64,000 nt of DNA from Cyclobacterium sp. GTDB lineage: Bacteria; Bacteroidota; Bacteroidia; Cytophagales; Cyclobacteriaceae. This document shows positions 1,856-52,536 of this stretch, one piece after another. Within the stretch, counting starts at the first letter, position 1. Every line of letters begins with the position of its first letter. The notes below the pieces were generated by a model. That model was not told the origin of the DNA, searched no databases, and was given only the letters and a program-made list of their open reading frames with translations. The position numbers and the translations under genes were made by a program. The stretch spans positions 1 through 64,000 of the forward strand of contig NZ_JABURL010000106.1 in the NCBI RefSeq assembly GCF_014762705.1. The letters are read 5' to 3'.

Positions 1856-1867
1856 ACAGGTATTTCC

Positions 1868-2032: not shown

Positions 2033-2171
2033 AACACAGGCCATAAGACAGGTTCTGCGACAGGCGGGGTGAACTTGAACTGCTACATTTTAACGGACAA
2101 AAAGGTACCTTAGTCCATGCCTGTCCCCAAATATAACCTCCATTTTTCGGCTCCAGGCTCCAACGATGCGT

Positions 2172-2516
2172 TTCCGAACTTCAATACTACGGTTCCGAAC
2201 TGAAACGATCTGTTTTTTATCTGCAAACATCCGCCTTTTTACCCGGATCAGCCGCCAAAATGGCATCCTATTCCGCCTTTTAGCTGCATTGACCCACTTC
2301 CGAACCGCAAGCTTGCGGTTCAGAACCTGACAGGCCGGGTTCCGAAGTACTACCGCCCAGTTCCGAAGTACCCTCTTCAAGCCGAAAATTCGAAAAGCTT
2401 CGGTCAACATGTCAGGGTTTTTCTATTTTAACTAGAAAGTTCCGATTTTTGGATCAAAATAAGAGCTTCCGAACCTTAAGATGGGACTTCCGAACCGCAA
2501 CGTTCGGGTTCCGAAC
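2172..2516. repeat. Degenerate array with 21-bp period (TTCCGAAC core)
   Basis: TTCCGAAC or a one-base variant starts at 2172, 2193, 2298, 2319, 2340, 2361, 2467, 2488 and 2509. Successive starts differ by 21, or by multiples of 21 within one base. Between 2193 and 2298 a CCGCC motif at 2231, 2252 and 2273 keeps the same 21-bp period in another phase. Reading the minus strand inside 2090-2410 gives a heptad-periodic peptide rich in VRN/VRK steps. The DNA array extends beyond that frame, so I treat the reading frame as a by-product. It ends about 160 bases before the YihY gene. Confidence 0.75.
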
Positions 2517-2676
2517 TTCAAGCTTGTCATTTTGAAGTCCCCCTACCCACTTGAGAAGTAGGTAGGGGTCTTTGGTCCAATTCAAAACAAATTACCTTAT
2601 ATTGAGAAATGATTTCCTATAATGCAGCTCCATTTCCCAATGGGGCCTGATTAAACTCCATAGAACTCAAAACCAC

Positions 2677-3570: not shown

Positions 3571-3642
3571 CACCGAAGTTATTAAACAGCATCCATTTTC
3601 AACCACTGGAAGTGGGGCCGGGACCTGGGCTAAACCCACAGT

Positions 3643-3673
3643 AAAAAAAAAAGCTTCTCGTTACGGAGAAGCT
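3643..3673 (-). terminator. Intrinsic terminator, probably the native tRNA-Leu terminator
   Basis: An 8-bp stem (AGCTTCTC / GAGAAGCT) with a six-base loop is followed, on the minus strand, by about ten T. If the prophage is removed by joining the two att copies, this hairpin lies about 20 nt downstream of the tRNA-Leu 3' end on the same strand, which is where a tRNA terminator belongs. In the lysogen it lies downstream of the repressor gene instead. Confidence 0.75.
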
Positions 3674-3692
3674 CTAACTGACTGTTAATCAA

Positions 3693-3708
3693 TGTACCAG
3701 GAGCGGGA
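3693..3708. other. attL: attL core (16-bp direct repeat)
   Basis: TGTACCAGGAGCGGGA is identical to 52360-52375. The flanking bases differ on both sides (A before and C after here; T before and A after at attR), so the shared core is exactly 16 bp. It reads as the last bases of the tRNA-Leu acceptor/T-arm plus two downstream bases on the minus strand. Confidence 0.9.
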
Positions 3709-3766
3709 CTACATCCTTCTAAATAAATCATTGATTATCAGTGTTTAATTTCTCGGGGGTGAAATT

Positions 3767-4138
3767 TCACCCTTTACTTTGCTCCAATTTTCCCATCAAA
3801 AGCTTGTTGTGCTCTTCCAACAATTCGATGTACTTTTTCTGCCAGAGTTCCTTTTCTTTGATGCATTTTGCCAGATCACTGCTGCTGTAAATCTCCTTTT
3901 CTTCTGGTGAAAAACCGTACTCTGTAAGCATTTCCGGAAACTCTTTTGAAAAATCATGGCCTATCGCCCGGCCATATTTATGGATAATGTTGAAACTGAG
4001 GTCATCCTTTTCAAAATGCCTGTAGGCACTGGATGGGTGATAGGAAGCCTTTTTTGCTATTGCCAATATGCTTACCGCATGCTCTTTGGCATACTCGTCT
4101 AGCTTTTTTCTGAGTATTTCTCCCCTGTGAAACTTCAT
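3767..4138 (-). CDS. Phage repressor-like HTH regulator
   Basis: With the start at the ATG at 4138 this is a 123-aa protein. It has an N-terminal HTH (residues about 8-45, including AVSILAIAKKASYHPSSAYRHF), then a helical middle, and a C-terminal coiled coil (KELWQKKYIELLEEHNKLL) that could dimerise it. An in-frame ATG at 4192 would add 18 residues. I prefer 4138 because the palindrome at 4164-4178 would otherwise be coding, and because similar Bacteroidota proteins begin MK.HRGEI. Position (first gene inside attL, leftward, divergent from the early operon) supports a lysogeny repressor, probably autoregulated. Confidence 0.75.
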   Translation of the reverse strand: MKFHRGEILRKKLDEYAKEHAVSILAIAKKASYHPSSAYRHFEKDDLSFNIIHKYGRAIGHDFSKEFPEMLTEYGFSPEEKEIYSSSDLAKCIKEKELWQKKYIELLEEHNKLLMGKLEQSKG

Positions 4139-4163
4139 GTATACAAAGTTGGGAATAAGTTTT

Positions 4164-4178
4164 TTCTCATTTTGAGAT
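4164..4178. promoter_or_regulatory. Putative repressor operator (left)
   Basis: TTCTCATTTTGAGAT is a near-perfect palindrome lying 25-40 bases upstream of the preferred repressor start. It matches the perfect palindrome ATCTCATTATGAGAT at 16060-16074 in 13 of 15 positions. Two copies at likely regulatory positions of one prophage suggest a common binding protein, most simply the adjacent repressor. Confidence 0.55.
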
Positions 4179-4245
4179 GAAAAATATTGCATTACTATAC
4201 TTTATATCGCATATTTACCGCATAGTTATAGCACTTTAAGAAAAC

Positions 4246-4500
4246 ATGCAATACCAAAAATCAAGTATGCTATCCAAAAAGGAGTTGAAAAAATTGAAAA
4301 AGAGATTGCCATATGGCTATTTCTCCAAGATAGAAAATCGGGTAAATGTGTCCTCCAGGACGATTTCCTATTTTTTTTCCGAAAAGGAACACCGCTATAA
4401 CCTGGAAGTACATCAAGCGGCCCTTGATGTGATTGAGGAATACCAACTTTCTATAAATAAGATAAAAACGCGACAAAACACCATCTTAAATGAGAAATAA
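4246..4500 (+). CDS. Small DNA-binding-type protein (Cro/antirepressor position)
   Basis: This is an 84-aa basic protein, first gene of the rightward early operon and divergent from the repressor. Residues about 9-45 (LSKKELKKLKKRLPYGYFSKIENRVNVSSRTISYFF, given here only as landmarks LSKKEL, GYFSKI and VSSRTIS) fit a short HTH, followed by a helical tail with LEVHQAALDVIEEY. Similar small proteins are common in Bacteroidota phages. A Cro- or CII-like switch role is inferred from position. It overlaps the next gene by 11 bases. Confidence 0.65.
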   Translation: MQYQKSSMLSKKELKKLKKRLPYGYFSKIENRVNVSSRTISYFFSEKEHRYNLEVHQAALDVIEEYQLSINKIKTRQNTILNEK

Positions 4501-5083
4501 GGAACTCATATCCAGAATGAAAACCTGTGTATCCGGGAAATTACCAGCAGGAATCGTCGACCAAAACGTCGAATTCTTCGCAAAAAGCGAAAGCGTTTTC
4601 GCAATTGTGCAATCCAAGATGCTTCCCCCTGCAGAATGGCCAACCTGGCTGAAAGAGTCGATTCTTGAAGACATGCAGAAGCATCCTTCCGCAGTTCAGG
4701 CACTCGTAGACGCTGATTTTGTGACGGAGGAAGAAATGATTGTCCAATACATCAAGTGCCGTTATTCTGCCCTGGACAATCAACCCGATATGATCGAAGG
4801 TCAATTGCAGGATACCGAATATGTCGATTGCAGTTTGAGAGGCAATTGCCCATATGAAGGCCGGCTGTGTGAGTTGCTGGCCGCCAGGTACGGAATACTT
4901 ACCCCCAGGGAAATAGAAGTTTTGAAGCTAATCCCTGAAGGACTACTGGACAAAGAGATAGCAGACAAAATGGGCATATCCGTCCTTACCGTGGGTGTGT
5001 ACATGAAAAATTTGCGAGAAAAAACAGGCTATAAAAATAAAGCCGAACTGGTTCGCTTCGCTTTCGAAAAGAACCTGATATGA
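4490..5083 (+). CDS. LuxR-type HTH transcriptional regulator
   Basis: This 197-aa protein has a C-terminal LuxR/GerE DNA-binding domain at about residues 135-195, with landmarks LTPREIEVLKLI, EIADKMGIS and VYMKNLREKTG. It has no recognisable receiver domain. The middle holds a Cys cluster (CSLRGNCPYEGRLC, residues about 110-125) that might bind metal or sense redox. It lies second in the early operon and overlaps the upstream gene. A role in the lytic switch or in activating later genes is inferred. The 20-22 bp palindromes at 15841-15900 are the kind of site such a dimer could bind. Confidence 0.75.
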   Translation: MRNKELISRMKTCVSGKLPAGIVDQNVEFFAKSESVFAIVQSKMLPPAEWPTWLKESILEDMQKHPSAVQALVDADFVTEEEMIVQYIKCRYSALDNQPDMIEGQLQDTEYVDCSLRGNCPYEGRLCELLAARYGILTPREIEVLKLIPEGLLDKEIADKMGISVLTVGVYMKNLREKTGYKNKAELVRFAFEKNLI

Positions 5084-5168
5084 CATTACCGGAAAGTTCA
5101 TTCCACGTTTGAGCGACAACCATTCCGGGACCGTACCGGTAGCGGTTCCGGAATTTAAAAACCAAGCC

Positions 5169-5405
5169 ATGAACCCATTCAAACTGTTACTCGACCACAA
5201 CATTGCCAGGCAAAAGAAAAAGCACTGGACAGAAAGGGCCAGGGGGCTTAAAGGAATTTTTGAACCCCTTAATAACCTGCATGCCCATAACTGGATCCGG
5301 CGGGAAATCGCTATCCGGATGAATCTCTACCAGGTGATGGATCAGCTGATCACCAATGAACAACTCTATAAAGACCTTGACTATGAGCCCAAGAAAAGAA
5401 CTTAG
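5169..5405 (+). CDS. Small early phage protein, unknown function
   Basis: This is a 78-aa basic protein from ATG 5169 (MNPFKLLLDHNI). A TTG at 5109 would extend it by 20 residues. It is helical with many Lys/Arg (RQKKKHW, RARGLKG) and an Asn/His-rich centre. No domain is recognised. It overlaps the next ORF by 23 bases, as expected in a compact early operon. Confidence 0.55.
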   Translation: MNPFKLLLDHNIARQKKKHWTERARGLKGIFEPLNNLHAHNWIRREIAIRMNLYQVMDQLITNEQLYKDLDYEPKKRT

Positions 5406-5613
5406 AGATTATGAGGAATTGCTGGAATTTGCCAGGCAGGAGCTGCGCGCAAGTCAGCAGCAACTCATTCGCATGCGGAACCTGGAAGCAGATCCCGCCC
5501 AGCTCGATGAGTTGGAAAAGGAAATAGAACTCCTCAAAAAAGGAGTAGATCGATATCAAATCAAAATCAAAGTACTCAAAAATGCACTACGAGAAAGTGA
5601 AAATCAGTCCTAA
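5383..5613 (+). CDS. Small coiled-coil early phage protein
   Basis: This is a 76-aa, strongly helical protein (starting MSPRKELRDYEELL) rich in Glu, Gln, Leu and Lys, with heptad-like spacing over most of its length, so a coiled coil is likely. The start at 5383 overlaps the upstream gene. An earlier ATG at 5356 would add nine residues. The function is unknown. Confidence 0.55.
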   Translation: MSPRKELRDYEELLEFARQELRASQQQLIRMRNLEADPAQLDELEKEIELLKKGVDRYQIKIKVLKNALRESENQS

Positions 5614-5776
5614 GCTTCGCCATGAAAATATCCCCTGCACAGCCGACCACTTCGAAAAATACCTTCGGGACAAAGCTCTCCCCATCATCTACCAGGGAAA
5701 CGATTACATCCGTGTCCGGGATGGCTCCGGCGAAGAATGGGGGCTTTTCCGCAAACAGTTTAACACGTGCCGGTAG
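5582..5776 (+). CDS. Small early phage protein, unknown function
   Basis: This 64-aa ORF starts with ATG inside the end of the preceding gene (32-base overlap). It has mixed charge with aromatic residues and a C-terminal segment YIRVRDGSGEEWGLFRKQF that looks like a small beta-rich fold. No family is recognised. It is kept because it fits the chain of overlapping genes. Confidence 0.5.
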   Translation: MHYEKVKISPKLRHENIPCTADHFEKYLRDKALPIIYQGNDYIRVRDGSGEEWGLFRKQFNTCR

Positions 5777-5966
5777 AAAGCGGAAAATCCAGCAGCGCAG
5801 GTATTACTTTATCCGGAAGCTTCGTGAAATGGGCTACCAGATCGAAACAGAGAGGCGAAGCATTCAGACACCCTACACCACAGTGAACGAAATCCCACTA
5901 CCGGACAGATACTACGTCCGGCAGCTTCTCAAACTTGGATTTCAGCAAGAACTTACTTTTTTCTGA
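5721..5966 (+). CDS. Small basic early phage protein, unknown function
   Basis: This is an 81-aa ORF from ATG 5721, with a very basic stretch GRKRKIQQRRYYFIRKLREMG followed by ETERRSIQTPYTTV and a helical end. The frame is open upstream to 5622, but that part overlaps the previous gene and looks like a shadow. The stop TGA shares its last base with the ATG of the primase-helicase gene, so the two are translationally linked. The basic, helical character suggests nucleic-acid contact. Confidence 0.5.
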   Translation: MAPAKNGGFSANSLTRAGRKRKIQQRRYYFIRKLREMGYQIETERRSIQTPYTTVNEIPLPDRYYVRQLLKLGFQQELTFF

Positions 5967-8848
5967 TGTACATAGAACAGCAAAAAATATTGGACGGGAC
6001 CGACGGAGGTCTCAAAATTATCCTGCATTACTATCCCCAGGCAGAGCGAGCCCTCGAGCGAAAAGGGACCAAGTTCAAACTTCGGGCCAGTGAAAAGACA
6101 GCCTCTGCTACGCTGAAGCAGCTTTCTGACGGCAACTGGGTCGTAACAGACTTTGGTGGAGATCAGAAGCCTAAAAACGGTATCCTGGTGGTCATGGAGG
6201 AAGAAGGCCTGGAATTTAAAGAAGCCCTGGAGCTGCTGGCCGCCAGGTACGGTTTCGATGGGCAGGAGCCACCGGAGATCCTGAAGCCCGAAATTACCAC
6301 CAGAGAAGCAAAGGCAGAAGAGAATGAGGGCGAATGGTATTTTGAAGTCCGGGAAGGTTTTACCGAGCTGGAAGTTACCACCGTCCTGGCGGATAAGGCC
6401 ATCCCTTATCAAAAGGATGATCAGGGGAAGAAAATCATCAATTGGGAAAAAATCGAAAAGGTATTCAAACGGTACCATTTTCATTCCCTGATCAGTTATT
6501 CCATTGTCAAAAACCGGAAGGTTATCACTATTTCGGCCACAGATCGATATCCCATTTTTATGTGGGATGAGGGATCTTTCAAAAAAATTTACCAGCCACT
6601 CAGTCCGGACAAGGGCCGGCGCTTTATGTACTACGGTAAGCGAGACAAAGATTTTTTACATGGCCTATCTGCCTGCCATATGGCTTATGAGTCGCTGCAG
6701 GAAGGAGAGGACATTGACGAAGAGACAGGCGAGGTCCGGTCCAAAAAGAAAAAGAAGCTTCCGGAGATCGTTTACTGCAGTGGTGGATCCGATGGCATGA
6801 ACGTGGCCATGATCGGTTACCAGGTGGTTTGGCCAAACAGCGAAACGGCCAAACTCTCCGATAAGCAATTCAAGAGCCTGGCCAAGCTGGCAGATAAGGT
6901 CATGAATATGCCGGACATCGATCACACCGGACTGAGGGAAGCGCATCGTCTGGCCATGGAGCATCTGGACCTCTACAATGTTATGCTGCCGGCAGAGCTC
7001 AGGGAGCGCCCGGACAAGCGGGGCAATCCGTCCAAGGATGTCAGGGATTACCTGAAATACCATACTTATTACGACTTTAAGCAACTGGTCAAAACGGCGC
7101 TTCCTTATCGTTTTTGGGATGAAATCTACTACGAAGACAAGGCCGGCAACTGGCGGTCAAAGTTTGAAGTGAAAAATACCAGGCTGTACAATTTTTTGAC
7201 CAAAAACGGATTCTTCAGACTGCAGAACAAAAACGAAAAGCAGGGCTTCATTTACATTCAGATCAAAGACAACATCGTCCGGGAGATAGAAGTGAATGAG
7301 GTGAAGACCCACGTACACCGCTTCCTGGAAGAGCAGTATGTGGACGAAGACCTGCGGGATGTATTCTTTCGCAGTACCCAGCTGAAGGAAGCGTCCATGT
7401 CCAATCTACCCATGACTGAGGTGGATTTTTCAGATTTCGACCGGGACCGGCAGTTTTTCTTTTTCGAAAACAAAACCGTAGAAGTCAGCAAGTCCGGTAT
7501 CCGGGTGCACAAGCTGGGGGAGATCAAGCGATATGTGTGGGAAGATGAGGTGATCAAGCACCGGTACAAGGAGCAGGAACCCCATTTCAAGATCAGCAAA
7601 AATGAAGATGGCGACTGGCACATCGATATCCTGAAGAAGGATAATATTTTCCTGAATTTCCTGATCAATACCAGCCGTACCCACTGGCGCACGGAGCTGG
7701 AAGATAACCTGGAAGGGCTCAGTCCGGACGCGCAAAAGGCTTATAAGAAAAAGCACCTGTTTGACATAGCAGGGGAAAATCTCTCTCCGGAGGAGAAGCG
7801 GGAGCAAATGCACCAGCTCGTCAATAAGATCTACGTCCTGGGCTACCTGCTGCACCGGTATAAGGATCCCTCCAGGCCATGGGCCATCTGGACCATGGAC
7901 CACCGGATCAGCGATGAGGGAGAAAGCCATGGGGGTTCCGGTAAGTCCATTGCCATGGGGGCGGTCAGTCGATTTATGAAGTCGGTCACCCTGCGGGGCA
8001 GGGATCCCAAGATGACCGAAAACCCACACATGTACGACCGGGTGACCATTCACACCGATTATATCCTGGTGGATGATGCCAATCAGTACCTGAAATTCGA
8101 TGTGTTCTTCAGTGATATCACGGGCAATATGATTGTGAATCCAAAGAACAACAAGTCCTATGAAATCCCTTATGAGGAATCCCCAAAGTTTGCCTTCAGC
8201 TCCAATTTCCCCCTTCGCAATATAGACAGCTCCGTACTGCGCCGGGTGCTATACTGCGTGTTTTCCGACTACTACCACGAAAACAAAGACGGCTATTTCC
8301 GGGAGAGCAGAAACCCCAGGGAGGAATTCGGTAAGAATATCCTCGGTCCGGACTATACAGACGACGACTGGAACGACTTCTACAATTTTATGATCCAGTG
8401 CTGCGAGTTCTACCTGAACCATGGCAAGATAGATCCTCCCATGGAGAATGTCGAGAAACGCAATTTACTGAGCGAAATGGGCACGGCATTCCACGAGTGG
8501 GCAGATACCTACTTCAGCGACAGGATGAACGAAGACGTGGTCAAAAAATACGCCATGGAGGACTTTATCCGAAGTACCAATACCAAGTGGACCTCACAGA
8601 AATTCACCAAAGCCATGCGGGCCTGGGCCAGGTACTACGGCTATGAGCTGGATCCGGAGGAATTCAAAAACAGCTCCGGCCGGATCATCCGCAAGATCCA
8701 GGAGGACGGACATCCCACCTCCGTGGAGATGATCTACATCCGAAATACTGCCGCTTCCTCGCCTGCAGGCGGAGAGCAGATCCCCATCACCCCGGGGAAT
8801 GACAAGCTGCTACCAGGCAGCCAGACTGATGTATTTGACAAATTTTGA
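5966..8848 (+). CDS. Phage primase / SF3-like replicative helicase
   Basis: This 960-aa protein probably drives phage replication. The N-terminal 100 residues resemble the zinc-less start of phage primases (GNWVVTDFGGDQ, LEFKEALELLAARYG). A Toprim-like part follows at about residues 264-330 (IVYCSGGSDGMNVAMIG, then MPDIDHTG). The C-terminal third is an SF3-type ATPase: Walker A GGSGKS near residue 656, Walker B ILVDDAN near 700, and a sensor-type FAFSSNFP near 755 with an Arg pair soon after (LRRVLY). It is the largest early gene, overlapping its neighbour by one base. I saw no separate polymerase, so it presumably uses host polymerase. Confidence 0.8.
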   Translation: MYIEQQKILDGTDGGLKIILHYYPQAERALERKGTKFKLRASEKTASATLKQLSDGNWVVTDFGGDQKPKNGILVVMEEEGLEFKEALELLAARYGFDGQEPPEILKPEITTREAKAEENEGEWYFEVREGFTELEVTTVLADKAIPYQKDDQGKKIINWEKIEKVFKRYHFHSLISYSIVKNRKVITISATDRYPIFMWDEGSFKKIYQPLSPDKGRRFMYYGKRDKDFLHGLSACHMAYESLQEGEDIDEETGEVRSKKKKKLPEIVYCSGGSDGMNVAMIGYQVVWPNSETAKLSDKQFKSLAKLADKVMNMPDIDHTGLREAHRLAMEHLDLYNVMLPAELRERPDKRGNPSKDVRDYLKYHTYYDFKQLVKTALPYRFWDEIYYEDKAGNWRSKFEVKNTRLYNFLTKNGFFRLQNKNEKQGFIYIQIKDNIVREIEVNEVKTHVHRFLEEQYVDEDLRDVFFRSTQLKEASMSNLPMTEVDFSDFDRDRQFFFFENKTVEVSKSGIRVHKLGEIKRYVWEDEVIKHRYKEQEPHFKISKNEDGDWHIDILKKDNIFLNFLINTSRTHWRTELEDNLEGLSPDAQKAYKKKHLFDIAGENLSPEEKREQMHQLVNKIYVLGYLLHRYKDPSRPWAIWTMDHRISDEGESHGGSGKSIAMGAVSRFMKSVTLRGRDPKMTENPHMYDRVTIHTDYILVDDANQYLKFDVFFSDITGNMIVNPKNNKSYEIPYEESPKFAFSSNFPLRNIDSSVLRRVLYCVFSDYYHENKDGYFRESRNPREEFGKNILGPDYTDDDWNDFYNFMIQCCEFYLNHGKIDPPMENVEKRNLLSEMGTAFHEWADTYFSDRMNEDVVKKYAMEDFIRSTNTKWTSQKFTKAMRAWARYYGYELDPEEFKNSSGRIIRKIQEDGHPTSVEMIYIRNTAASSPAGGEQIPITPGNDKLLPGSQTDVFDKF

Positions 8849-8849
8849 T

Positions 8850-9077
8850 ATGGAAATATTACTCAAACTCCGACCTGCCATGTCCCTGGAAGACTTCATG
8901 GACAAGGAAAAAAAATCCCGCAAAAAGGGCCTGGTCTATTTCCAGATCCTTGAGGGAAGCTCCGGGCTTATCACCCGGGTGGTATCCGATCAGACAGACA
9001 AGGTCTGGCTGCAGCGGATGATTCGAAAAGGAAAAATATTCTTACAGGAAACCCAAACCATTGCTGAAACATCATGA
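8850..9077 (+). CDS. Small early phage protein, unknown function
   Basis: This is a 75-aa ORF with ATG one base after the primase-helicase stop. It is basic, with MSLEDFMDKEKKSRKKGLVYF followed by a short beta-type segment and a helical end. An upstream ATG in the same frame (8799) would overlap the helicase, so 8850 is preferred. It overlaps the next ORF by four bases (ATGA). Confidence 0.6.
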   Translation: MEILLKLRPAMSLEDFMDKEKKSRKKGLVYFQILEGSSGLITRVVSDQTDKVWLQRMIRKGKIFLQETQTIAETS

Positions 9078-9292
9078 ACATTACTGTAGACCTCAGTTTT
9101 CTGATCGCTGTCAAAGACATGCGAGAGGAACAAAGACGCTTCTTTCAACTCACTAAAGAAGCCAAAGCCAAAAAGCTGCCCAAGCTATGGGCCCAGCGAA
9201 AGAACTGCCTGGACAGCTCCAGACAGCTGGAAGCCCTGGTGGATATCCGCCTGGAACAATACCTGGAAAAAAAGGAGGTGCGCAATGACTGA
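9074..9292 (+). CDS. Small helical early phage protein, unknown function
   Basis: This is a 72-aa, all-helical, highly charged protein in ATGA overlap with the upstream gene. It is Lys/Glu-rich with AKAKKLPKLWAQRKN in the middle. No domain is recognised. It overlaps the lipoprotein gene by eight bases. Confidence 0.6.
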   Translation: MNITVDLSFLIAVKDMREEQRRFFQLTKEAKAKKLPKLWAQRKNCLDSSRQLEALVDIRLEQYLEKKEVRND

Positions 9293-9581
9293 TCATCGAA
9301 GATATAATGGCTGCTGGGTAAGCGGATTTTTTTCGTTTTGCTTCTGGCTCCTCCTGCTGGTCACCTGCACCAGCTCCTGCGGTACTGTCCGGATCACTGC
9401 CCTGGTGCCTGCCGGGCAGGTGATCAGCCGGGACGGCGACCGGCTGCTGATTCAGTTTGATGATGCGGCCAGTAGGCCCGGCAAAGCTTACGAATGGTTT
9501 CATTTTCCCGGCCTGGGACCGGTGGATTACCGCGAGCTCGAGGCCGAGCTGATCATCAGGAAAAGGAGGGAACATGACTGA
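9285..9581 (+). CDS. Small phage-encoded lipoprotein
   Basis: This 98-aa protein has a hydrophobic stretch (residues 14-27) ending in a lipobox-like TSSC, so Cys32 is the likely acylated residue. The mature part of about 65 residues contains a small beta-type motif (DGDRLLIQFDD) and a charged tail. It lies in the early operon, not with the lysis genes, so a role in altering the host surface (for example superinfection exclusion) is possible but unproven. Overlaps on both sides link it to the adjacent membrane protein. Confidence 0.65.
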   Translation: MTDHRRYNGCWVSGFFSFCFWLLLLVTCTSSCGTVRITALVPAGQVISRDGDRLLIQFDDAASRPGKAYEWFHFPGLGPVDYRELEAELIIRKRREHD

Positions 9582-9771
9582 TCAGCTGCTTTATACGCCA
9601 TCCTTTTACTATCTGTACTTATGCTTTTTTTGCCTGGTGGCATCGCTCTGTCTACTTTCAGCTATTCTGGTCCTTCTTCGGGAGATGGCAAAGGAGGAGC
9701 CTCCGGATCAGGCACCGCCAGAGGTGCGCAGGCAGTGGCTCTGGCATCAGATCCGGAATAATTTCAAATGA
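9574..9771 (+). CDS. Small single-pass membrane protein
   Basis: This 65-aa protein has one hydrophobic segment at about residues 11-36 (aromatic, Cys- and Leu-rich), followed by a hydrophilic tail with a Pro/Glu-rich linker. It overlaps the lipoprotein gene by eight bases and the next gene by four. Possible partner of the upstream lipoprotein; function unknown. Confidence 0.6.
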   Translation: MTDQLLYTPSFYYLYLCFFCLVASLCLLSAILVLLREMAKEEPPDQAPPEVRRQWLWHQIRNNFK

Positions 9772-10181
9772 TCATTCACCAAAACCCTCCTATCATGAAC
9801 TTAGAATTTATCCCCCTAAAACAAACCAAGCGTGGCAAGCCCACTATTTTATTTTCCAAAACCGGGCTTATAAGCCTGTCAAAGACAGCTGCAGAGGAAA
9901 TCGGTCTGACCAAAGAAACCAGGATAGAGCTTGCCCGTGATGCAGACCGCTCTGAAGACTGGTACCTGGTTAAGTATAGGCCGGGAGTAGATGCCGGGGT
10001 TCCATTTCGGCAAAAAGATAATGGCCTCTGCCTGAATGCATCTTCCTGGACACACGCCTTTCTGGATCAGTTTTCAGAAGGAAGGAAATCACTATCCGTC
10101 CTGATCGCTACCCAGCCGGAGGATAATTCCCTGGGCGGCAAAGCGGAAATTTTTGCCATTCTAACCAAATCCCTAAGGTAA
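9768..10181 (+). CDS. Early phage protein, unknown function
   Basis: This is a 137-aa ORF starting in ATGA overlap with the upstream gene; an internal ATG at 9795 (MNLEFIPL) is an alternative start. The N-terminal half has a pattern like a small beta/helix fold (TILFSKTGLISLSKTAAEEIGL) reminiscent of AbrB-like or single-strand-binding small folds, but I cannot assign a family. It is followed directly by a 38-aa ORF. Confidence 0.6.
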   Translation: MIIHQNPPIMNLEFIPLKQTKRGKPTILFSKTGLISLSKTAAEEIGLTKETRIELARDADRSEDWYLVKYRPGVDAGVPFRQKDNGLCLNASSWTHAFLDQFSEGRKSLSVLIATQPEDNSLGGKAEIFAILTKSLR

Positions 10182-10298
10182 ATGGCTGGGATAGAAAAAT
10201 TATTTACCCTGGAGGTAGGCGTTGAGCAGTTTCTCAACGCCTACTCTCCCCTTGAGCTTAAGGAAATGGAGATGCCTATCCTGTGTTCCACATTTTAG
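10182..10298 (+). CDS. Short ORF, possibly truncated by the cargo cassette
   Basis: This is a 38-aa ORF beginning MAGIEKLFTLEVG, with its ATG directly after the previous stop (no gap). The first 30 residues look like a normal helical phage protein. The end (MPILCSTF) and the stop fall where composition turns AT-rich and gene direction reverses. I infer that the gene lost its 3' end when the leftward cassette entered, but a natural short protein cannot be excluded. Confidence 0.45.
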   Translation: MAGIEKLFTLEVGVEQFLNAYSPLELKEMEMPILCSTF

Positions 10299-10309
10299 TA
10301 TTACTAAAA
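10293..10309. terminator. AT-rich perfect palindrome between convergent genes (possible bidirectional terminator)
   Basis: TTTTAGTA-T-TACTAAAA is a perfect palindrome, and TACTAAAA recurs at 10324-10331. It lies between the rightward early operon and the leftward cassette. With no G+C core it is a weak terminator at best; a protein-binding site or a cassette boundary sequence is also possible. Confidence 0.35.
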
Positions 10310-10359
10310 ATTTATCATATCCCTACTAAAATTATAATATCAAATAGTTGCGGAATTTA

Positions 10360-11442
10360 TTAGAAAGGTAAATATTCTCCATTATCATATCCTGCGTAAA
10401 ACCTTTCGCTGTAAATGCTCATTACACTTTCTCTAACGTAAGTTTCAATTTTGGCTTTTTTTTCGGCTGTTACGGAGTTAACTAATTGGTCATATGCGTC
10501 AAAATATACGTAATCCTTTTTGGTGTGGTTTTCAACCAATTTGCATATTAATTTAAAAAACTCCTTTTTAACTGATTCACTATTTAAATATGTACCAAAT
10601 GACGCAAGAAGATTATCATTTGTATAACTCGAAATCTTGTCAGGATCACTTGCGTTTCCAATAAATGTGTTTAGGATATAAAGAAGGATAAATTCAATTT
10701 CATCATATTCTAAGTATTTAATCTCCTCATGTAGTAATCTATAATAGGATAGTACTTCCCAATTTCCACCCGTTTCGATTTTTTTAATCATTTTTCGAAG
10801 AAGGTTTTCAATGACTTCTCTGTCAATTTGTGTTTTAAGAATTCTTAGATATTTCTTAGTTCCTTCTATTTCAAATTCAAATTTTTCTAAATTAAACCCA
10901 TATTCTACTAGAGCCTTATAAAGTTTGTGTTTCTCGCCTTTGTGAACCTTAGTAAGAATTTTTTCAAAAATTGGTTGAGATAATTCATCACTTTCAAGTT
11001 TCAAAATTAAGTCATTTGCCGTATAACCAATTTTATTTAGGTAGTTTTCTCTTACTTCTTTTACAATTATATTTAGGACACTTTTAGCTACATCTCCGGT
11101 ATTTTCATCAAAACTTTCATTCTTTCTAATTTCTCGTCCAGGATGAATAAGATTTCTGTAGTTTTTTATTACTGTTGAAAGTTCCTTTGTAGATTGGGAA
11201 ATCAATTTGGCTTCATAAGCTTTTTCTATTAGCCCAAATAGATCCATAGAAAGTACTGCTTTTTTCTTCAATCCTTCAATTGAAAAGTTTATGAAGTAAT
11301 CAGCTAATATGGCTTCGATAATACTGCCTGAAAGTAATAATACGGATTTAGTACAGTTATTAGCAGCGCATTTATTTAACTCTTCAAAATCCCTTTCAAG
11401 TATTTCTCTAAAATTTTGGTCAGATATGAAGTCAAATTTCAT
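10360..11442 (-). CDS. HEPN-like N-terminal domain protein, candidate defence gene
   Basis: This is a 360-aa, AT-rich, mostly helical protein. Residues about 25-130 (SVLLLSGSIIEAILADYF, then NYRNLIHPGREIRKN) look like the HEPN/DUF4145-type helical bundle, in which a polar R-N...H motif marks RNase or nucleotide-binding activity. The remaining 230 residues are helical and unrecognised. It is the last gene of a leftward group with the ISP-type methyltransferase and a DUF4145 protein, 141 bases after the methyltransferase. An abortive-infection or R-M-linked role is inferred from the neighbours. HEPN assignment is by motif only. Confidence 0.6.
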   Translation of the reverse strand: MKFDFISDQNFREILERDFEELNKCAANNCTKSVLLLSGSIIEAILADYFINFSIEGLKKKAVLSMDLFGLIEKAYEAKLISQSTKELSTVIKNYRNLIHPGREIRKNESFDENTGDVAKSVLNIIVKEVRENYLNKIGYTANDLILKLESDELSQPIFEKILTKVHKGEKHKLYKALVEYGFNLEKFEFEIEGTKKYLRILKTQIDREVIENLLRKMIKKIETGGNWEVLSYYRLLHEEIKYLEYDEIEFILLYILNTFIGNASDPDKISSYTNDNLLASFGTYLNSESVKKEFFKLICKLVENHTKKDYVYFDAYDQLVNSVTAEKKAKIETYVRESVMSIYSERFYAGYDNGEYLPF

Positions 11443-11583
11443 CAGTCTTTTAATTAAATAGATACTAATACGAAGATTGGTGCTTAATGATCATTGAGGC
11501 CTGAGTCAATTGGTCGTTAGAATGAAATTTATTTAGAAGCTGAGTTCAGAGAAATGAAATCTTTTAACCCAATGATCCAGAAC

Positions 11584-14500
11584 CTAAATAAAACCCACCT
11601 TATCTACCTCCTTCATGAGCTGGTCCGTTTCTGAAAGTGCCACAATGATTTTTTGGTAGTGGAGAATATCGTCGTATTCCAGGTTGCGCCCCTTTCGATC
11701 CTTGAGCCACTTCTGCGCCGGCTGGTAACCGCCGATGTAGAACTCCCAGGCCACTTTCGGAACCCCGTCGAAGTACTGCTCCTCATTGATATACACCTTG
11801 CCCGCGCTGCCATCCGTGTCGGGGACATAGCGTGGCTTCACCACCTCATTTGATCCGTGTACCGGATACCGGGTGATGTATTGCTCCACCGTCGGGCTTT
11901 CCAGCAGGTGGATTTGGCGCAGCTGTCTACCTAGTTCCACCAGTTTCCAGAAGGTTTTCGGATCTTTTGGATATGGCACCCGGGGAAAGTCTATTTTTAG
12001 AAACTCCTTATACCTCTCCCGGTAGCTCGGCGAGTGCAGCACCGCATAGATATAATCCAGGATATCTATCGGCGCAAAGGTATTTTCGGCAGCTTCCTTT
12101 TCGTTGGTAAACCTCAACCCCAAGCCCTCAGCAATTTGCTTTACAATCTCAAGGTTTAGATTTGGTTGTCTTTCTGTTGTTTGCTCGATGGTTTGTTGTA
12201 CTTTGTTTTCAGTATAAAGGTAAAGAGGAAAAATATATCCCGTTTCTTTTGTTTGAGATGAAATATTGCACATATCAGAAACAAGTCTGCTTGTAAAAAC
12301 GTGTTGAAAATCAAATGTAGATTGTTGACGACAAGTAATCAGACTAACGTTTTCAGAATTATTTAAATGACCAAACATCTCCGCTCTTGGATATGCAACA
12401 AAACCTTTTGATTTTCCCGTAAAAAATGTAAATCTATCATCAAAAGGTCTATACATTACTTTTACTTGAGTTGGTTTATTTTGTAATAAATCGACTTTTG
12501 CCCATTCAATTTTCCAATCTCGACCATCAGAAGGTAATTTCAAATGGCTTCTTATTTCATCAATTTCATTTTCTTTGAACACGGATTTAACTTTTTGAAG
12601 CTCATTTGACTTTATGTTGATAGTTATTTTATCCCTTTTTGTTTGAAATCCAGAAACATAGTTTTTCATCAGACTATCGACTTTAAAACCTGATTTATAT
12701 TCACTTCCTGATTTAAAATCCTTTGGAACATAAAATAAATAAGGTTCTATATTCTCTAATTTATTCCATTTGATAGATGAAAACGTACTTCCATTAAGTT
12801 TTTCATATTTTAGGTTTCTTCTTCCATAGAGTTCAGAATGAAAAATTTCGCCTAATTCTAAGGTTTTCTTTTTACCTGTTTTAACAAATATATTGATTGA
12901 AACACCTTGCTGAATGTCAAATACGTTCTCATCTTTGCTTCCATCGATCGCTGTCTCATTTTTTTTAGCACTTCCGTGTAGATCAACTATATAAATCTTG
13001 TCAAAAGATTTTAAAATACTTCTCCGCATTTGTCGGTGGGTAATCCCATCTATAAAACTGTTATTAGATATGTAAGCTAAAATACCGCTTCCGTTTTTAT
13101 CTATATAATATTGTCCATACCGAATAAATTTTATGTAATCGTCATCTAAGTTAATTTTTCGTTCATTTAAACCTATTTTGTAATCCCCAATAAGATTTTG
13201 AATCCATTCACTTTTGTTCGAACTACTAACACTGTATGGAGGGTTTCCGATCACACACATCACCGGGGTATCCCGTTTCACATGGTTGGCATCATTTGCT
13301 TCCGCACTGAGCCAACTGGCAAAAAGCGTCCCTGTGTCTTGGTGGTATTCTTCCAGACTGTTGGTGAGATACACGCGCAGACGCTGGTTGCTGGTTGGTT
13401 TGTATCCGGTTTCGGTTAATAGCAGGTCCAGCTTCAGGTGCGCCATGGCATAGCTGGCCATCAGTAGCTCAAAGCCATTGAGCCGGGGGATCAGGTGCCG
13501 TTCTACGTAGTTGCTCCAGATTCCTTCCTGCCCGGTAAATTTCTTATGGATATGCTTGACGACTTCGGCCAGGAAGGTACCTGTACCGGTGGCTGGATCT
13601 AAGATCTGTACCCGGTGCACCTCTTGTTCCACTTGCTTGTATCCGGTAGCTGATCGTCGGTCCTCTGTTTGGGTGTTGACTTTGATCGTGGTTTTACTTG
13701 TATCGGCCAGGCCCTGGGGTAGGTCAAATTCGGATTTCAATATATCATCCACTGCTCGGACGATAAAATCTACCACCGGTTGAGGAGTATACCATACCCC
13801 ACGGGATTTACGCAGCTTGGGATCATATTCGGTTAGAAATGTTTCATAAAAATGGATGATTGGATCCTCCATTTTGGTAGATTTCCCGTAGTTTTTCAGA
13901 ATGTTTTCCACATTGCACGCTAAGAAGATATCTGCCAGGCTATCCACGACCCATTTAATCCGATCGTCAATATCCGGTCCGGCAATGTAGCCAAAAAGCT
14001 TACGTAGAAAAGGGTTTGATTTTGGGATCAATTCGGCAGCCTCTTGGCGGGTAAAAGTCCCCAGGGTAGGGTCATGAAGCCTTGCAGCGAACATACCGTA
14101 AGCGATGGTTTGTGCATATACATCAGCAAATCCCTGTGGGGTAATGTCGTGGATTAGGATCTGTTTAAAGGCCTTCATTTGGTCTTTTAGCGTGCTATCT
14201 TCCTGGTTAGCCTCATCAGAGGTCAGAGCATTGCCGATGATATCGGATAGTAACCGGGCTTTACCGGCCATCATTTCAGCCAGTTTCTTGCTGCTCTTTA
14301 TCGTTTGTCCAACGTGGCTGCTAAAGTCTTTGATTAGGTTCTCAAAGGCGGCAAAGTTCTCGGGTAGGGGGTTAATGCCCTTTTCGGTAATTTCCCCAAT
14401 GGCTATTTTTGTGGTAAACTCCCCCTCCCGGTACAGGTGGAAGTTAATGTAATCTGTGAAGATTAGGTTATTTAGTGACGCTTTATACCGGTCAAACTGC

Positions 14501-14760
14501 TCTTTGTTTCCGGTCTTCTTTGCCCCGTCAAGGTCCTTATCTCCAATATCTTTCGCCTCAATAAAGCCCACCGGTATATCCTTTTTGGTTAGAATATAGT
14601 CAGGGGCACCGCATTTTTGCCTTTTGGGTTCATTGGTCGCACTAATGGACGGGGAGAGACTTTCAAGAAGTTGCTGGAGATCTCCGCGAAAAGTATGTTC
14701 AGTAGCATTGCCCTGGCGGTATCTTTTGTCGATGTTTCCAAGGTATTCTGATAGGTTCAT
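11584..14760 (-). CDS. Type ISP-like restriction/modification enzyme without helicase (nuclease-methyltransferase-TRD)
   Basis: This 1058-aa single-chain protein has an N-terminal Mrr-like PD-(D/E)xK nuclease pattern at about residues 50-72 (GAPDYILT then GFIEAKD). A helical spacer carries YTPQPVVDFIV near residue 320. The gamma-class N6-adenine methyltransferase part has motif I DPATGTGTFLAEV near residue 390 and motif IV NPPY near 510. A target-recognition region and a Type_ISP-like C-terminus follow (DFPRVPYPKD, FWKLVELGRQLRQIHLLE). ISP enzymes such as LlaGI also carry an SF2 helicase between nuclease and methylase; none is seen here, so this is closer to a type IIG-like layout. Bases 12130-13230 (residues about 510-877, the specificity region) are much more AT-rich than the rest. 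It probably cuts unmodified invading DNA and methylates host and phage DNA. Confidence 0.82.
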   Translation of the reverse strand: MNLSEYLGNIDKRYRQGNATEHTFRGDLQQLLESLSPSISATNEPKRQKCGAPDYILTKKDIPVGFIEAKDIGDKDLDGAKKTGNKEQFDRYKASLNNLIFTDYINFHLYREGEFTTKIAIGEITEKGINPLPENFAAFENLIKDFSSHVGQTIKSSKKLAEMMAGKARLLSDIIGNALTSDEANQEDSTLKDQMKAFKQILIHDITPQGFADVYAQTIAYGMFAARLHDPTLGTFTRQEAAELIPKSNPFLRKLFGYIAGPDIDDRIKWVVDSLADIFLACNVENILKNYGKSTKMEDPIIHFYETFLTEYDPKLRKSRGVWYTPQPVVDFIVRAVDDILKSEFDLPQGLADTSKTTIKVNTQTEDRRSATGYKQVEQEVHRVQILDPATGTGTFLAEVVKHIHKKFTGQEGIWSNYVERHLIPRLNGFELLMASYAMAHLKLDLLLTETGYKPTSNQRLRVYLTNSLEEYHQDTGTLFASWLSAEANDANHVKRDTPVMCVIGNPPYSVSSSNKSEWIQNLIGDYKIGLNERKINLDDDYIKFIRYGQYYIDKNGSGILAYISNNSFIDGITHRQMRRSILKSFDKIYIVDLHGSAKKNETAIDGSKDENVFDIQQGVSINIFVKTGKKKTLELGEIFHSELYGRRNLKYEKLNGSTFSSIKWNKLENIEPYLFYVPKDFKSGSEYKSGFKVDSLMKNYVSGFQTKRDKITINIKSNELQKVKSVFKENEIDEIRSHLKLPSDGRDWKIEWAKVDLLQNKPTQVKVMYRPFDDRFTFFTGKSKGFVAYPRAEMFGHLNNSENVSLITCRQQSTFDFQHVFTSRLVSDMCNISSQTKETGYIFPLYLYTENKVQQTIEQTTERQPNLNLEIVKQIAEGLGLRFTNEKEAAENTFAPIDILDYIYAVLHSPSYRERYKEFLKIDFPRVPYPKDPKTFWKLVELGRQLRQIHLLESPTVEQYITRYPVHGSNEVVKPRYVPDTDGSAGKVYINEEQYFDGVPKVAWEFYIGGYQPAQKWLKDRKGRNLEYDDILHYQKIIVALSETDQLMKEVDKVGFI

Positions 14761-14802
14761 TTTTTAAACGTGATCGTTGGTGAAAAAATGGTTTGGCTGT
14801 AT

Positions 14803-15453
14803 TTATTTTTCGTTATCTCCGTTACTTGCTTTTCCATCTCGTTTTGAAATGGATTCTGTTTGTGAGATTGGTAAAGAATTGTAAAGATTTTGAATTTGTT
14901 TAGGCTGGGTAATCATCCTATCTGAGATAATATTGACGAGTTTAAACAGATTGACGGCAATTTCTCTGTTATCCTTAATGTCTAACCTGCCGGGGTGTAC
15001 AGCGTTGTTTCCTATTACCCTTACATAATCAAGGGACTGTTGGATTTCTTGGGGTAATCCATTTTTGACTAAATTTGAAATATCTGTATTAATGTGCTCT
15101 CCTTTTTCGCCGAGAAGTTTACAAATTTTCTGAATAACTAATCTCAACAATGCGGCACTTCCTCTCGGTGATTGATTTAGAATTTCTCTTGCTTCCAGGT
15201 AGTCGTTCTTAATTTCTTCTGGAAGATCGTCATTAGGCAGTGGGGCACTGCTATTTTCAGGAAAGACCATTTTTTCCCTATGCCAAATTGAAATATCATG
15301 GCAATGCGTACAAAATGCTAAAAAAGTTGTAGATAGGCTTTGGTACCCTTGATGAAAAATAAAAACATTTTCCCATTTCTGTTGCGAAAATGCTCCACAG
15401 TTTGGACAGTGGAAAGAACTCTTCTTGAATTCAGGTTGGTAATGTTGACTCAT
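14803..15453 (-). CDS. DUF4145 domain protein with N-terminal zinc ribbon
   Basis: This 216-aa protein begins with a zinc-ribbon pattern (CPNCG at about residues 15-19 and CTHCH near 48-52). The DUF4145 helical domain follows (LRLVIQKICKLLGEKG, then the hallmark GNNAVHPGRLD) and a polar tail. DUF4145 is HEPN-related and often found beside restriction or other defence genes. It is the first gene of the leftward cassette and ends 42 bases before the methyltransferase start, so the two are probably co-transcribed. Its exact role is not established. Confidence 0.8.
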   Translation of the reverse strand: MSQHYQPEFKKSSFHCPNCGAFSQQKWENVFIFHQGYQSLSTTFLAFCTHCHDISIWHREKMVFPENSSAPLPNDDLPEEIKNDYLEAREILNQSPRGSAALLRLVIQKICKLLGEKGEHINTDISNLVKNGLPQEIQQSLDYVRVIGNNAVHPGRLDIKDNREIAVNLFKLVNIISDRMITQPKQIQNLYNSLPISQTESISKRDGKASNGDNEK

Positions 15454-15511
15454 TTTTTTTGATTAATTAAGCGACAAAATCATAACAAATGATCTTTTAA
15501 AAAAACTACAA

Positions 15512-15700
15512 TTAATATTCCGACCCATGGTACTCATAAACCCCGTCTCTCCCGGCCACAGCCCCTCTGGAGCCTAAAGACATGCTGCCATATTTCAGTA
15601 GCCACACTGCCACAATACTGCGGCTGATCCGGGCCGGGAGAGACACCGCTTTCCCTTCTTCCCGCCCTGGCCATCCCAGGCCGGGTCTTTCTGCGTTCAT
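15512..15700 (-). CDS. Possible small ORF, doubtful
   Basis: This is a 62-aa ORF on the cassette strand, 58 bases before the DUF4145 gene. It is Gly/Arg/Ser-rich (SMSLGSRGAVAGRDGVYEY) with a short hydrophobic centre. It contains both arms of a 13-bp inverted repeat, so its codons may simply reflect a structured DNA element. No family is recognised. Confidence 0.3.
   Translation of the reverse strand: MNAERPGLGWPGREEGKAVSLPARISRSIVAVWLLKYGSMSLGSRGAVAGRDGVYEYHGSEY
15545..15644. repeat. 13-bp perfect inverted repeat with 74-bp spacer
   Basis: GTCTCTCCCGGCC at 15545-15557 is the exact reverse complement of GGCCGGGAGAGAC at 15632-15644. The arms are G+C-rich while the surroundings are AT-rich. 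They could form a long-looped hairpin at the outer edge of the cargo cassette. Confidence 0.6.
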
Positions 15701-16122: not shown

Positions 16123-16650
16123 ATGGATATTCAGCTTACCATCACCAAAGACCTGCTCCGGGAATACTTCCGGCACCTCTTTCCTTTGGATGCAAAAGGC
16201 CGCTACCTGATCGACCGCAGCTCTGACCTGGGCAAAGCCATCTGCAGCTTTGTCCGCTATACCGAAGTCAAGCCAGAGCGGGATCCCCAGGCCCTGCAGC
16301 TGCTACTGCCAAAAACAGACAGCCTTAAAAATGCGCCCAACTACCACCTCTATTTTTCCCGTGAAGACCTGCTCCGGATCAATGACCTGGTGGAAGTTTT
16401 CTTCCATATCGACTTTGACCGCTTCTACCTGAAGGGCCGCAAGCTGGGCATGATGCAGAAGGATATCATTGAGTCCTTCATAGTGAGCCGAAAGCTGACC
16501 AACTTACTTCAAGACAATGAGACGCTTAAGAAACGGGAGTACCGGGAAGGGCTCCGGCTCCTGCAGCTGCGCTGTAAGACCCTGATCAATAAAGCCTATT
16601 ACAGGCATGAAAAAATCGAATTGGGCATGCAAAATATCTTAGTGAATTAG
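16123..16650 (+). CDS. Phage protein of unknown function, first gene of late region
   Basis: This 175-aa protein starts MDIQLTITKDLL and is helical with dispersed Arg/Lys. Landmarks are DAKGRYLIDRSSDLGKAI near residue 22, a central FHIDFDRFYLKGRKLG and a basic C-terminal helix. No domain is recognised. Because it stands directly behind the operator/promoter at 16060-16081, it could be a late regulator, but nothing in the sequence proves this. Confidence 0.7.
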   Translation: MDIQLTITKDLLREYFRHLFPLDAKGRYLIDRSSDLGKAICSFVRYTEVKPERDPQALQLLLPKTDSLKNAPNYHLYFSREDLLRINDLVEVFFHIDFDRFYLKGRKLGMMQKDIIESFIVSRKLTNLLQDNETLKKREYREGLRLLQLRCKTLINKAYYRHEKIELGMQNILVN

Positions 16651-17141: not shown

Positions 17142-18998
17142 ATGTCAGCCTTCAGTGACAGCCAGTTAGTAGCCAAAGCCAATGTTATTGGCAGCCAGAC
17201 CGATGAAAACACCATCGATCCCCAGATGGTGGCCAACATGTTCAATGACATCATCATGAACAAATGGAACAAGGATTCCCCTCTTCCCAAAGGCGATAAA
17301 GGGGATCAGGGAGATCCGGGGCCATCTGCCTACCAGGAATGGCTGGACCTGGGCAACAGCGGTACCGAACAGGATTTTATCAATAGTCTGAAAGGTGAAA
17401 AGGGCGACACCGGCGATCCTGGACCGCAGGGCATCCAGGGAGAGGCAGGCCCCGTTGGCCCGGACGGGCCTCAAGGCCCACAAGGAATCCAGGGAATCCA
17501 AGGTGAAACGGGTCCGGAAGGTCCACAGGGTCCACTCGGCCCACAAGGAAATGACGGGCTTTCCGCCTATGAAGTATGGCTGGATCAGGGGAATACAGGC
17601 ACAGAAGCAGATTACCTGCTGGCCATCAAAGGAGATACCGGGGATACCGGCCCTCAGGGTCCGCAAGGGATTCAGGGAGAAACAGGACCGGAAGGGCCAC
17701 AAGGAATCCAGGGGGTCCAAGGCGAAACGGGACCTGCCGGGCCAGAAGGTCCACAGGGACCCCAGGGGATCCAGGGAGAAACCGGACCGGAAGGTCCGCA
17801 AGGTCCGGCCGGTGCAGATGGCTCTCCCGATACACCTGCAGATATTGTTACCAAGCTTAGCTCAATTACCGAGGAACCAGAAAAGCTTCCTGCCTCTGCT
17901 GTCCAGTCTTCACCCTATAATCCGGACCATTTTGAATATGATGCTGAGACAGGGGCTTTTCAGGTAAGAACAGTAAGCACACCTGCGGAAGGGGTAAAGG
18001 GATTTATGACCGCAGAGGACTTTTATAACTATGAACAGGCCAATCCCCGGGGAAGTGGCACTGCTTTGTGGGATATGAGTTCATTTAGAGAGGCCAGGTA
18101 TAACAATGACTTTACACCTCGAAAAGGAACTGCTACGCAGGATGCTGTCATTATCATCGGCTCGGGGGGTAGTTCCGGAGACAAGGGATTTATATCCCGT
18201 GATTTGATCCATTACTTTGATTTTACCACCGGTTGGTTTGACAATTATGCCATTGCCCAGGCGAATGGTACCATTATCACCGCCGGAAGGAATACCAGCT
18301 CCGGTACATATATGTGCAAGAGAAGTACAGATCATGGGAAGAGCTGGACCAATATTACCCTTCCTGCCGATTCCCTGCCTTACGATATTGCCACAGACAA
18401 AAAGGGCAATTGGGTCATCTGCTGCAGAACGACGACTACCGGCCATCCTCAGGCTGTGTACAGCGATGATGACGGCCTTACTTTTTTGGCGAGCACTGTC
18501 CCGGACGAAAACGAATATATGGTGGTGGTCTGTGCAGGTGAGGGCTTTGCCCTGTTGGCTCCCCTGGGTACTAATAAAGTGCAATACAGTACAGATGGCG
18601 GTGCTACATTCCAGCCATCCACCCTCACCAACGAAACCGGGCATTTCACTGCCTTTGGCTGTGCGCACAAGGGAGACATGTTTGTCACCTCAAATGCTTC
18701 CGGGTCACATAACCGCTTGCTGCGCAGCCAGGACCAGGGAGCCAATTTTGATGGCATTTCGAATGGTTTTGATGACGTTCCGGTCAAGGCCATTGCTTCG
18801 GTGGGGGATTACCTGTATGTCGGTGCCACTGATGGCCGGCTCTTCCGGTCCAGAACCGGAGCACCTGGCGACTGGCAGGAAGTCGATTCGCCAGTGACCA
18901 ATGAGATCACCCTGATCACCGGGGGCATTATCAACAACATTCCTTTCGTCATCATCGGTACCGGTCAAAGTGGAGAGAGGGTATTAATCAATATCTAA
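17142..18998 (+). CDS. Collagen-like tail fibre with Asp-box beta-propeller domain
   Basis: This 618-aa protein has a short N-terminal attachment part, then residues about 50-230 dominated by Gly-X-Y triplets ([14 protein letters not shown] type). The triplets are interrupted by two copies of a fibre motif, [15 protein letters not shown] and [15 protein letters not shown]. After residue about 300 come Asp-box/BNR-type repeats ([41 protein letters not shown]), which form sialidase-like propellers. Collagen-like triplets trimerise phage fibres, and the propeller would be the distal receptor-binding or glycan-processing head. The next gene starts two bases later. Confidence 0.85.
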
Positions 18999-51052: not shown

Positions 51053-51061
51053 ACTTGCGAA

Positions 51062-52219: not shown

Positions 52220-52252
52220 ACCTCCGATGTTAGGGTGAAAAAAGGGAGAAAT

Positions 52253-52532: not shown

Positions 52533-52536
52533 TTCT

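Follow-up and report, generated by a model that had tools for sequence, protein, structure and literature searches.

A variable cargo site in a Cyclobacterium prophage and its three genes of probable anti-phage function

Results

The current study concerns three adjacent leftward genes carried by a prophage of Cyclobacterium sp. (NCBI RefSeq assembly GCF_014762705.1, contig NZ_JABURL010000106.1), which were analyzed within a stretch of 64,000 nucleotides (nt), hereafter termed the window. The locus is probably a cargo bay, i.e. an anti-phage hotspot, of a temperate phage of the Bacteroidota, where three separately acquired genes have accumulated. The insert borders, the gene families, and the exchange of genes at this site among related prophages were all directly observed, whereas protection of the lysogen by all three genes is inferred. 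A preliminary description of the window had viewed 10299–15500 as a prophage insert of three leftward genes from defense-type families. The borders obtained by blastn (10,283–10,296 and 15,498–15,571) agree with this view, as do the domain assignments and the site comparison given below; its observation is confirmed and its interpretation is supported in part. In the list of open reading frames (ORFs) of the window, the three genes appear as uninterrupted ORFs on one strand, with gaps of 42 nt between gene 1 and gene 2 and 141 nt between gene 2 and gene 3:

14803–15453, minus strand: gene 1 (216 amino acids, aa), predicted PD-T7-4-type protein with an N-terminal Zn ribbon and a DUF4145/HEPN domain (R145, H153); PADLOC, Pfam, alignment of 13 sequences, 9y9c_OA
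11584–14760, minus strand: gene 2 (1058 aa), predicted Type IIG restriction-methyltransferase with a Type_ISP_C specificity domain and no helicase; PADLOC, Pfam, motifs
10360–11442, minus strand: gene 3 (360 aa), predicted N-terminal HEPN domain (aa 1–140; R96 N97 L I H100 P101) and a C-terminal part of ~225 aa lacking convincing relatives; AlphaFold, Foldseek, alignment, phrog_1305
10296–15497, no strand: variable cargo insert, approximate borders; blastn against the sister prophages L113 and L123

Backbone similarity to L113 and L123 stops at 10,282 and 10,295, respectively, and returns at 15,498 and 15,571. The cargo lies between a conserved gene block starting with 5966–8848 and a conserved gene at 16123–16650. 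Among the 10 related prophages that we compared (the window included), each of which contains both anchor genes, the cargo between these two conserved phage genes is variable. A Type IIG enzyme is encoded at the site in five of the 10 (the window, L113, L123, L117, and L118), where its 3′ neighbors fall into five different clusters and its 5′ neighbors differ as well, save for gene 1, which is found in both the window and L113. A 37-residue match to the enzyme remains in L114 and none was detected in L115, L120, L124, or L125. Base composition is uneven across the insert, with a G+C of 0.37 for gene 1, 0.42 for gene 2, and 0.30 for gene 3, compared with 0.46–0.49 for the three preceding rightward genes and 0.46–0.54 for 500-base windows over 4,501–10,000. 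This composition looks foreign, and the unequal values of the three genes suggest that they are of separate origin.

Two additional observations were made at the corresponding interval of related prophages. In L124, a gene for a C5-cytosine DNA methyltransferase lies on the rightward strand (L124:6423–7988), and the 3′ neighbor of the enzyme in L123 (L123:7342–7908) weakly matches a PADLOC 2TM effector model (E 3e-4).

Judging from its domains, gene 2 is a Type IIG restriction-methyltransferase, a single chain in which nuclease and methyltransferase motifs are joined to an ISP-type specificity domain. It scores 1152 bits against the PADLOC Type IIG profile PDLC03610 and matches the Pfam families Type_ISP_C (296 bits, residues 697–1051), N6_Mtase, and Eco57I, with the methyltransferase match starting at residue 299. 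The motifs PD-x13-ExK (residues 53–70; P53-D54, E68-A-K70), DPATGTG (388–394), and NPPY (506–509) are all shared by the sister enzyme of L113 (also recorded as L005). Just as the preliminary description had supposed of an ISP-type enzyme without a helicase, the Pfam scan of gene 2 yielded no helicase family at E≤1. Assignment to Type ISP itself was ruled out, there being no translocase/helicase domain between nuclease and methyltransferase in this 1058-aa protein; since the helicase is missing and Type ISP enzymes are described in PMC3874165 as including a translocase, gene 2 is better placed in Type IIG. Identity between the window and L113 enzymes is 92–98% over residues 51–500 and only 24–36% over residues 651–850, and therefore the specificity region differs between the two. 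Separately, we encountered Type IIG enzymes that are ~97–99% identical over their 500 N-terminal residues in hosts from different families (L018, L020, L021, L023, L025, and L043). These are mostly followed by unrelated 3′ genes, which looks like a very recent spread of the enzyme.

Gene 1 is, by profile, a full-length homolog of PD-T7-4 and belongs to the HEPN family. Residues 1–208 align with positions 1–209 of the 211 in the PADLOC profile PDLC04109 (PD-T7-4; 299 bits, E 3e-90), PHROG 1305 provides another strong match, and the earlier assignment to DUF4145 holds (PF13643; 52.8 bits, cut-off 23.1). Among 13 aligned family members, the Zn ribbon cysteines C16, C19, C48, and C51 as well as R145, G148, V152, and H153 are all invariant, giving a motif spacing of R145-x7-H153. 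The gene is present in 7 of the 295 genomes sampled from the family, its own genome included. A relative with a solved structure, PDB 9y9c_OA, is related over its full length (198 bits). In this entry the DUF4145 protein is present as 24 chains, and it may show what PD-T7-4-type proteins bind.

Gene 3 is less readily placed. No Pfam family exceeds its cut-off for this protein and NCBIfam gives none at E≤1; its weak matches to Pfam DUF6291 (E 0.005) and PADLOC Cas2_IIIa (E 0.0056, the sole PADLOC match) fell short of the cut-off or were regarded as chance. PHROG 1305 aligns with residues 13–111 (E 5e-4), and the relatives of gene 3 have only about the first 135 residues in common; in most of the translated relatives the domain forms the C-terminus of a protein of ~257–312 aa. 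Across 13 aligned sequences, E21, G39, E43, L68, R96, N97, H100, and P101 are invariant. An AlphaFold model of residues 1–140, generated from this alignment, is all helical (pLDDT 88.2, pTM 0.84). Foldseek returned 246 PDB matches at E≤10. Among the 50 listed, 23 have HEPN and six have HpeT in the title and at least four are unrelated, while the best TM values are 0.64/0.71 to 2hsb. The further matches 1ylm, 1wwp, 2q00, 1jog, 1v4a, and 3c8g are members of the HEPN table of PMC3710099. Because the model is confident and the best PDB matches, despite their modest E-values, are HEPN structures, the HEPN assignment stands, and there is good model-based reason to regard residues ~1–140 as HEPN by fold; a point against it is the poor match of Pfam DUF4145 to the N-terminal 134 residues (E 0.13). 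The HEPN-like fold that had been predicted for 10360–11442 thus held up under structure prediction. The accompanying motif claim ("RN...HPG") was right insofar as RNLIHPG is present, with R96-N-x-x-H100 forming Rx3H, but the HEPN domain extends only over ~residues 1–140. Arginine at position 93 is nearly invariant in the relatives, where it would give Rx6H, and is replaced by K93 in gene 3.

For the C-terminal ~225 residues of gene 3, no convincing relatives were found, two weak hits (L004 and L143) being taken as chance, and no ATPase domain was found in the protein. A single-sequence model of the whole protein was too poor for use (pLDDT 43.5). A sequence search of the PDB with the gene 3 family gave two hits near E 0.8, both S100 proteins and taken as chance, and membership of its relatives in AbiJ was rejected, as only one of six scanned gave a weak AbiJ_NTD3 match (E 0.085). 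On three Streptomyces plasmids (L131–L133), a gene-3-type HEPN gene lies directly 3′ of a long AAA-domain gene, with a 4-nt overlap in L131, an arrangement that suggests another partnership for this family. Elsewhere, a gene-3-type HEPN gene is immediately followed by a 433-aa gene (L159:4564–5865), which looks like AbiH by its motif.

The position 3′ of the Type IIG enzyme, where gene 3 lies, was examined among the relatives of gene 2, using the best 80 of at least 577 genomic loci, with flanks of up to 10 kb, some of them ended by contig ends. A neighbor was defined as the next gene on the same strand of ≥100 aa and was considered tight when it starts within ≤30 nt, with counts taken over loci in which the neighbor is in view. 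The enzyme has a tight 3′ neighbor at 33 of 73 loci and a tight 5′ neighbor at 4 of 74, versus 90 of 347 and 102 of 348, respectively, for other genes of ≥300 aa at the same loci. For the 3′ comparison p=0.0017, which is a guide only because the loci are not independent. At nine loci (seven clusters), the enzyme stop and partner start overlap as ATGA. The partners themselves are highly diverse: 53 neighbors with gaps ≤150 nt, together with gene 3, form 46 clusters among 54 proteins, and among pairs of enzymes whose N-terminal identity is ≥95%, only 2 of 26 have homologous 3′ genes (1 of 12 when both gaps are ≤30 nt). Pfam scans of 30 hand-picked 3′ neighbors, 24 of which have a gap ≤30 nt, placed six in effector or nuclease families above cut-off (AAA_15/OLD-like, AAA_13 PrrC/RloC-like, SIR2_2, Mrr_cat, GmrSD_N, and Abi_2). 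The remainder comprise 16 without a Pfam match at E 0.01, five with matches below cut-off only, one DUF4209, and two that are clearly non-defense (MCRA and CorA). PADLOC GajA models matched two of all 54 proteins.

A special tightness of this 3′ neighbor was weakened by a control set of 30 loci of TaqI_C proteins, in which 19 loci have such a gene of ≥850 aa and one of these lacks a neighbor in view. Other IIG-like genes are tight about as often (7 of 18), and so close coupling is no peculiarity of this enzyme. The control group may include BREX pglX genes. A special role for the 3′ side is also countered by the 5′ neighbors, which vary too and are common to just one of five enzyme pairs at ≥95%. 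The neighbor pattern fits a situation in which restriction-modification (R-M) genes often gain partners, some of them Abi-type, and coupling of this general kind has been proposed in PMC3506569, PMC3710099, and PMC12707154. A bolder proposal would give the widespread Type IIG enzyme the part of a constant core within a modular defense unit of two parts, whose conserved 3′ end docks swapped, unrelated effectors (HEPN, OLD-like, SIR2, PrrC/RloC-like, 2TM, Mrr), often through stop-start overlap, with each serving as a backup upon the defeat of restriction and gene 3 being one such plug-in. We consider this doubtful. A literature search limited to abstract openings and to parts of PMC12707154, PMC3874165, PMC12259885, and PMC9122126 turned up no account of Type IIG enzymes with exchangeable 3′ partners.

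Much of the same evidence bears upon the alternative that survives best, in which gene 3 would guard the Type IIG enzyme in the manner of PrrC, staying silent as long as the enzyme is intact and releasing a HEPN RNase when a phage protein blocks restriction, with gene 1 being unrelated. The preliminary description had raised a kindred idea, that gene 3 could be an RNase set off by failed restriction, to which the AAA_13, OLD-like, SIR2, Mrr, and Abi_2 proteins sometimes present at the 3′ position lend indirect support. The excess of tight 3′ neighbors and the six effector or nuclease families among them are in line with a guard, and so is BxaP, a protein with DUF4145 and a HEAT-like part that is located inside BREX loci and, in phages, inside type I R-M loci, according to PMC10799925. 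However, gene 3 is separated from the enzyme by 141 nt and is not tightly coupled, its motif spacing departs from the canonical Rx4-6H, the control genes are similarly tight, and most of the scanned neighbors fall outside the effector families. The same source indicates that BxaP, which seems to act abortively, still protects a strain that has neither BREX nor type I R-M. Nor was a conserved linkage to one restriction system observed, as the 3′ neighbor is non-homologous in 24 of 26 closely matched enzyme pairs and gene 3 itself was found at no other locus. A guard role is plausible by analogy with PrrC, and on balance we regard it as unlikely.

The preliminary description had also treated the three genes as one defense-like cassette, and the counts do not support a single three-gene system; the co-occurrence in other genomes that it had named as a check is largely absent. 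Gene 1 was not found in the flanks of gene 2 at all 80 genomic loci (0/80) and at 13 of 14 viral loci (present in 1/14), and gene 2 was not found around all 12 other gene 1 loci (genomes, plasmids, and a phage; phmmer, E≤1e-3). Matches to gene 3 came from 4 genomes among 295 of the family and from 10 among 395 of the phylum, two samples that overlap in part and that each include its own genome, while partial matches were detected in 1 of 50,697 phage records and 5 of 72,556 plasmid records. A full-length relative was encountered nowhere else in the family, phylum, phage, plasmid, or viral-contig searches. In the viral contigs, a single-sequence scan with gene 3 found nothing and the HEPN alignment located the domain at 18 loci. 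The sole locus with both gene 1 and gene 2 is the sister prophage L113 (the same contig as L005 and L099), where gene 3 is replaced by a 286-aa protein containing three hydrophobic stretches. Because gene 1 and gene 2 loci rarely coincide and gene 3 is found full-length nowhere else, a conserved three-gene system was rejected; the neighborhoods argue, on present evidence, that genes 1–3 do not form one. The common strand, the short gaps of 42 and 141 nt, and the joint presence of genes 1 and 2 in L113 might have favored a single integrated system with mutually needed parts, but these same counts and the different third gene of L113 render it highly improbable. Equally remote is an addiction role, with genes 1 and 3 as HEPN toxins that maintain the prophage and do not serve defense, which would suit the prophage setting and the HEPN toxins heading the structural matches of gene 3, but conflicts with the tested defense role of gene 1's PADLOC family and with the lack of a recognizable antitoxin beside either gene among ORFs ≥60 aa, a survey that left out a small leftward ORF at 15512–15700 (62 aa) and shorter ORFs.

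The prophage housing the cargo spans ~3,693–52,375 (48.7 kb). Its edges are a 16-nt repeat, the sole exact repeat of ≥14 nt between 1–6,500 and 50,501–64,000; a tRNA-Leu gene ends (3′) in the right copy, and an integrase gene adjoins:

3693–3708, plus strand: likely attL, a 16-nt copy of the tRNA-Leu 3′ end; exact-repeat search
52360–52375, plus strand: likely attR, at the 3′ end of tRNA-Leu (52361–52445, minus strand); exact-repeat search, tRNA call
51062–52402, minus strand: prophage tyrosine integrase; Pfam Phage_integrase, Phage_int_SAM_5, Arm-DNA-bind_5

A late promoter that had been placed beside the cassette was not borne out, as a promoter and terminator scan gave 11 promoter-like matches versus 16.3 in shuffled sequences, i.e. 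fewer, and the scan was not used. The label "early operon" for the upstream genes is based on gene direction alone. Downstream of the cargo, 17142–18998 of the window encodes a protein with long collagen-like GPQG repeats, which is less conserved among the sister prophages than its neighbors.

Discussion

Based upon these results, the trio would be best understood as an assembly of known kinds of genes in a prophage hotspot, for which any joint mechanism is a proposal. The Type IIG enzyme, the most recurrent resident of the site, would methylate its own recognition site and cut unmethylated incoming DNA, and its specificity domain differs from one sister prophage to another. The PD-T7-4-type protein, a HEPN-family member encoded on the same strand upstream of the enzyme, would presumably work independently. 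Gene 3 sits in a fast-changing spot 3′ of the enzyme; the most likely activity of the HEPN domain is RNA cleavage, which would halt translation during infection, either alone or as a backup upon restriction failure, with the C-terminal part perhaps acting as a sensor or partner-binding part. Genes 1 and 3 would both probably act on RNA and add independent and probably abortive layers of protection.

Several observations weigh against this account. Gene 3 may lack RNase activity altogether. The HEPN catalytic motif is given as Rx4-6H in PMC3710099, and the spacings of both gene 3 (Rx3H) and gene 1 (R145-x7-H153) fall outside this range. Comparison of the two families by hhalign gave no significant link (probability 1.7%, E 0.028), and none of the Foldseek matches of the gene 3 domain reaches E 0.001, the best being 0.05. 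Furthermore, genes 1 and 2 keep an identical 42-nt junction in L113 and so are perhaps more than chance neighbors.

As for the broader meaning of the locus, the trio is to be read as an accumulation site rather than a new named system, one in which the Type IIG enzyme is the most recurrent component and its neighbors are fast-changing. If the coupled neighbors of such enzymes do serve as backups for failed restriction, dozens of uncharacterized proteins would become candidate effectors.

Each gene has parallels among known systems. PD-T7-4 is an experimentally validated E. coli defense system that emerged from a functional selection, as reported in PMC9519451. Gene 1 resembles it in the full-length PADLOC match, in the Zn ribbon cysteines and DUF4145, and in the occurrence of homologs on mobile elements; it differs in adjoining a Type IIG enzyme within a Bacteroidota prophage and in being a predicted defense protein. 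Gene 2 shares with the Type IIG R-M enzymes outlined in PMC3874165 a single chain with an N-terminal PD-ExK nuclease motif, methyltransferase motifs, and a C-terminal specificity domain, although this last domain matches the ISP type. Conversely, it has the Type_ISP_C specificity domain in common with Type ISP enzymes of the LlaGI kind, but lacks the translocase (helicase) domain that defines them. Like PrrC beside the type Ic R-M system EcoprrI, gene 3 would be a HEPN-family protein next to a restriction enzyme, yet neither an ATPase domain nor a conserved linkage was found. The build of gene 3 also recalls BxaP, for which PMC10799925 describes an N-terminal DUF4145/HEPN-like domain, a further C-terminal part, and a position beside a modification-based defense system. 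Gene 3 adjoins a Type IIG enzyme rather than BREX or type I R-M, and the likeness is one of description, not sequence, suggesting resemblance rather than membership. Lastly, the site as a whole parallels the P2/P4 prophage defense hotspots, in which, per PMC9122126, changing cargo of defense-type families lies between two conserved phage genes. The present site, with a predicted anti-phage role, belongs to another phage lineage, from the Bacteroidota, and would extend the anti-phage hotspots described for P2/P4 by one candidate.

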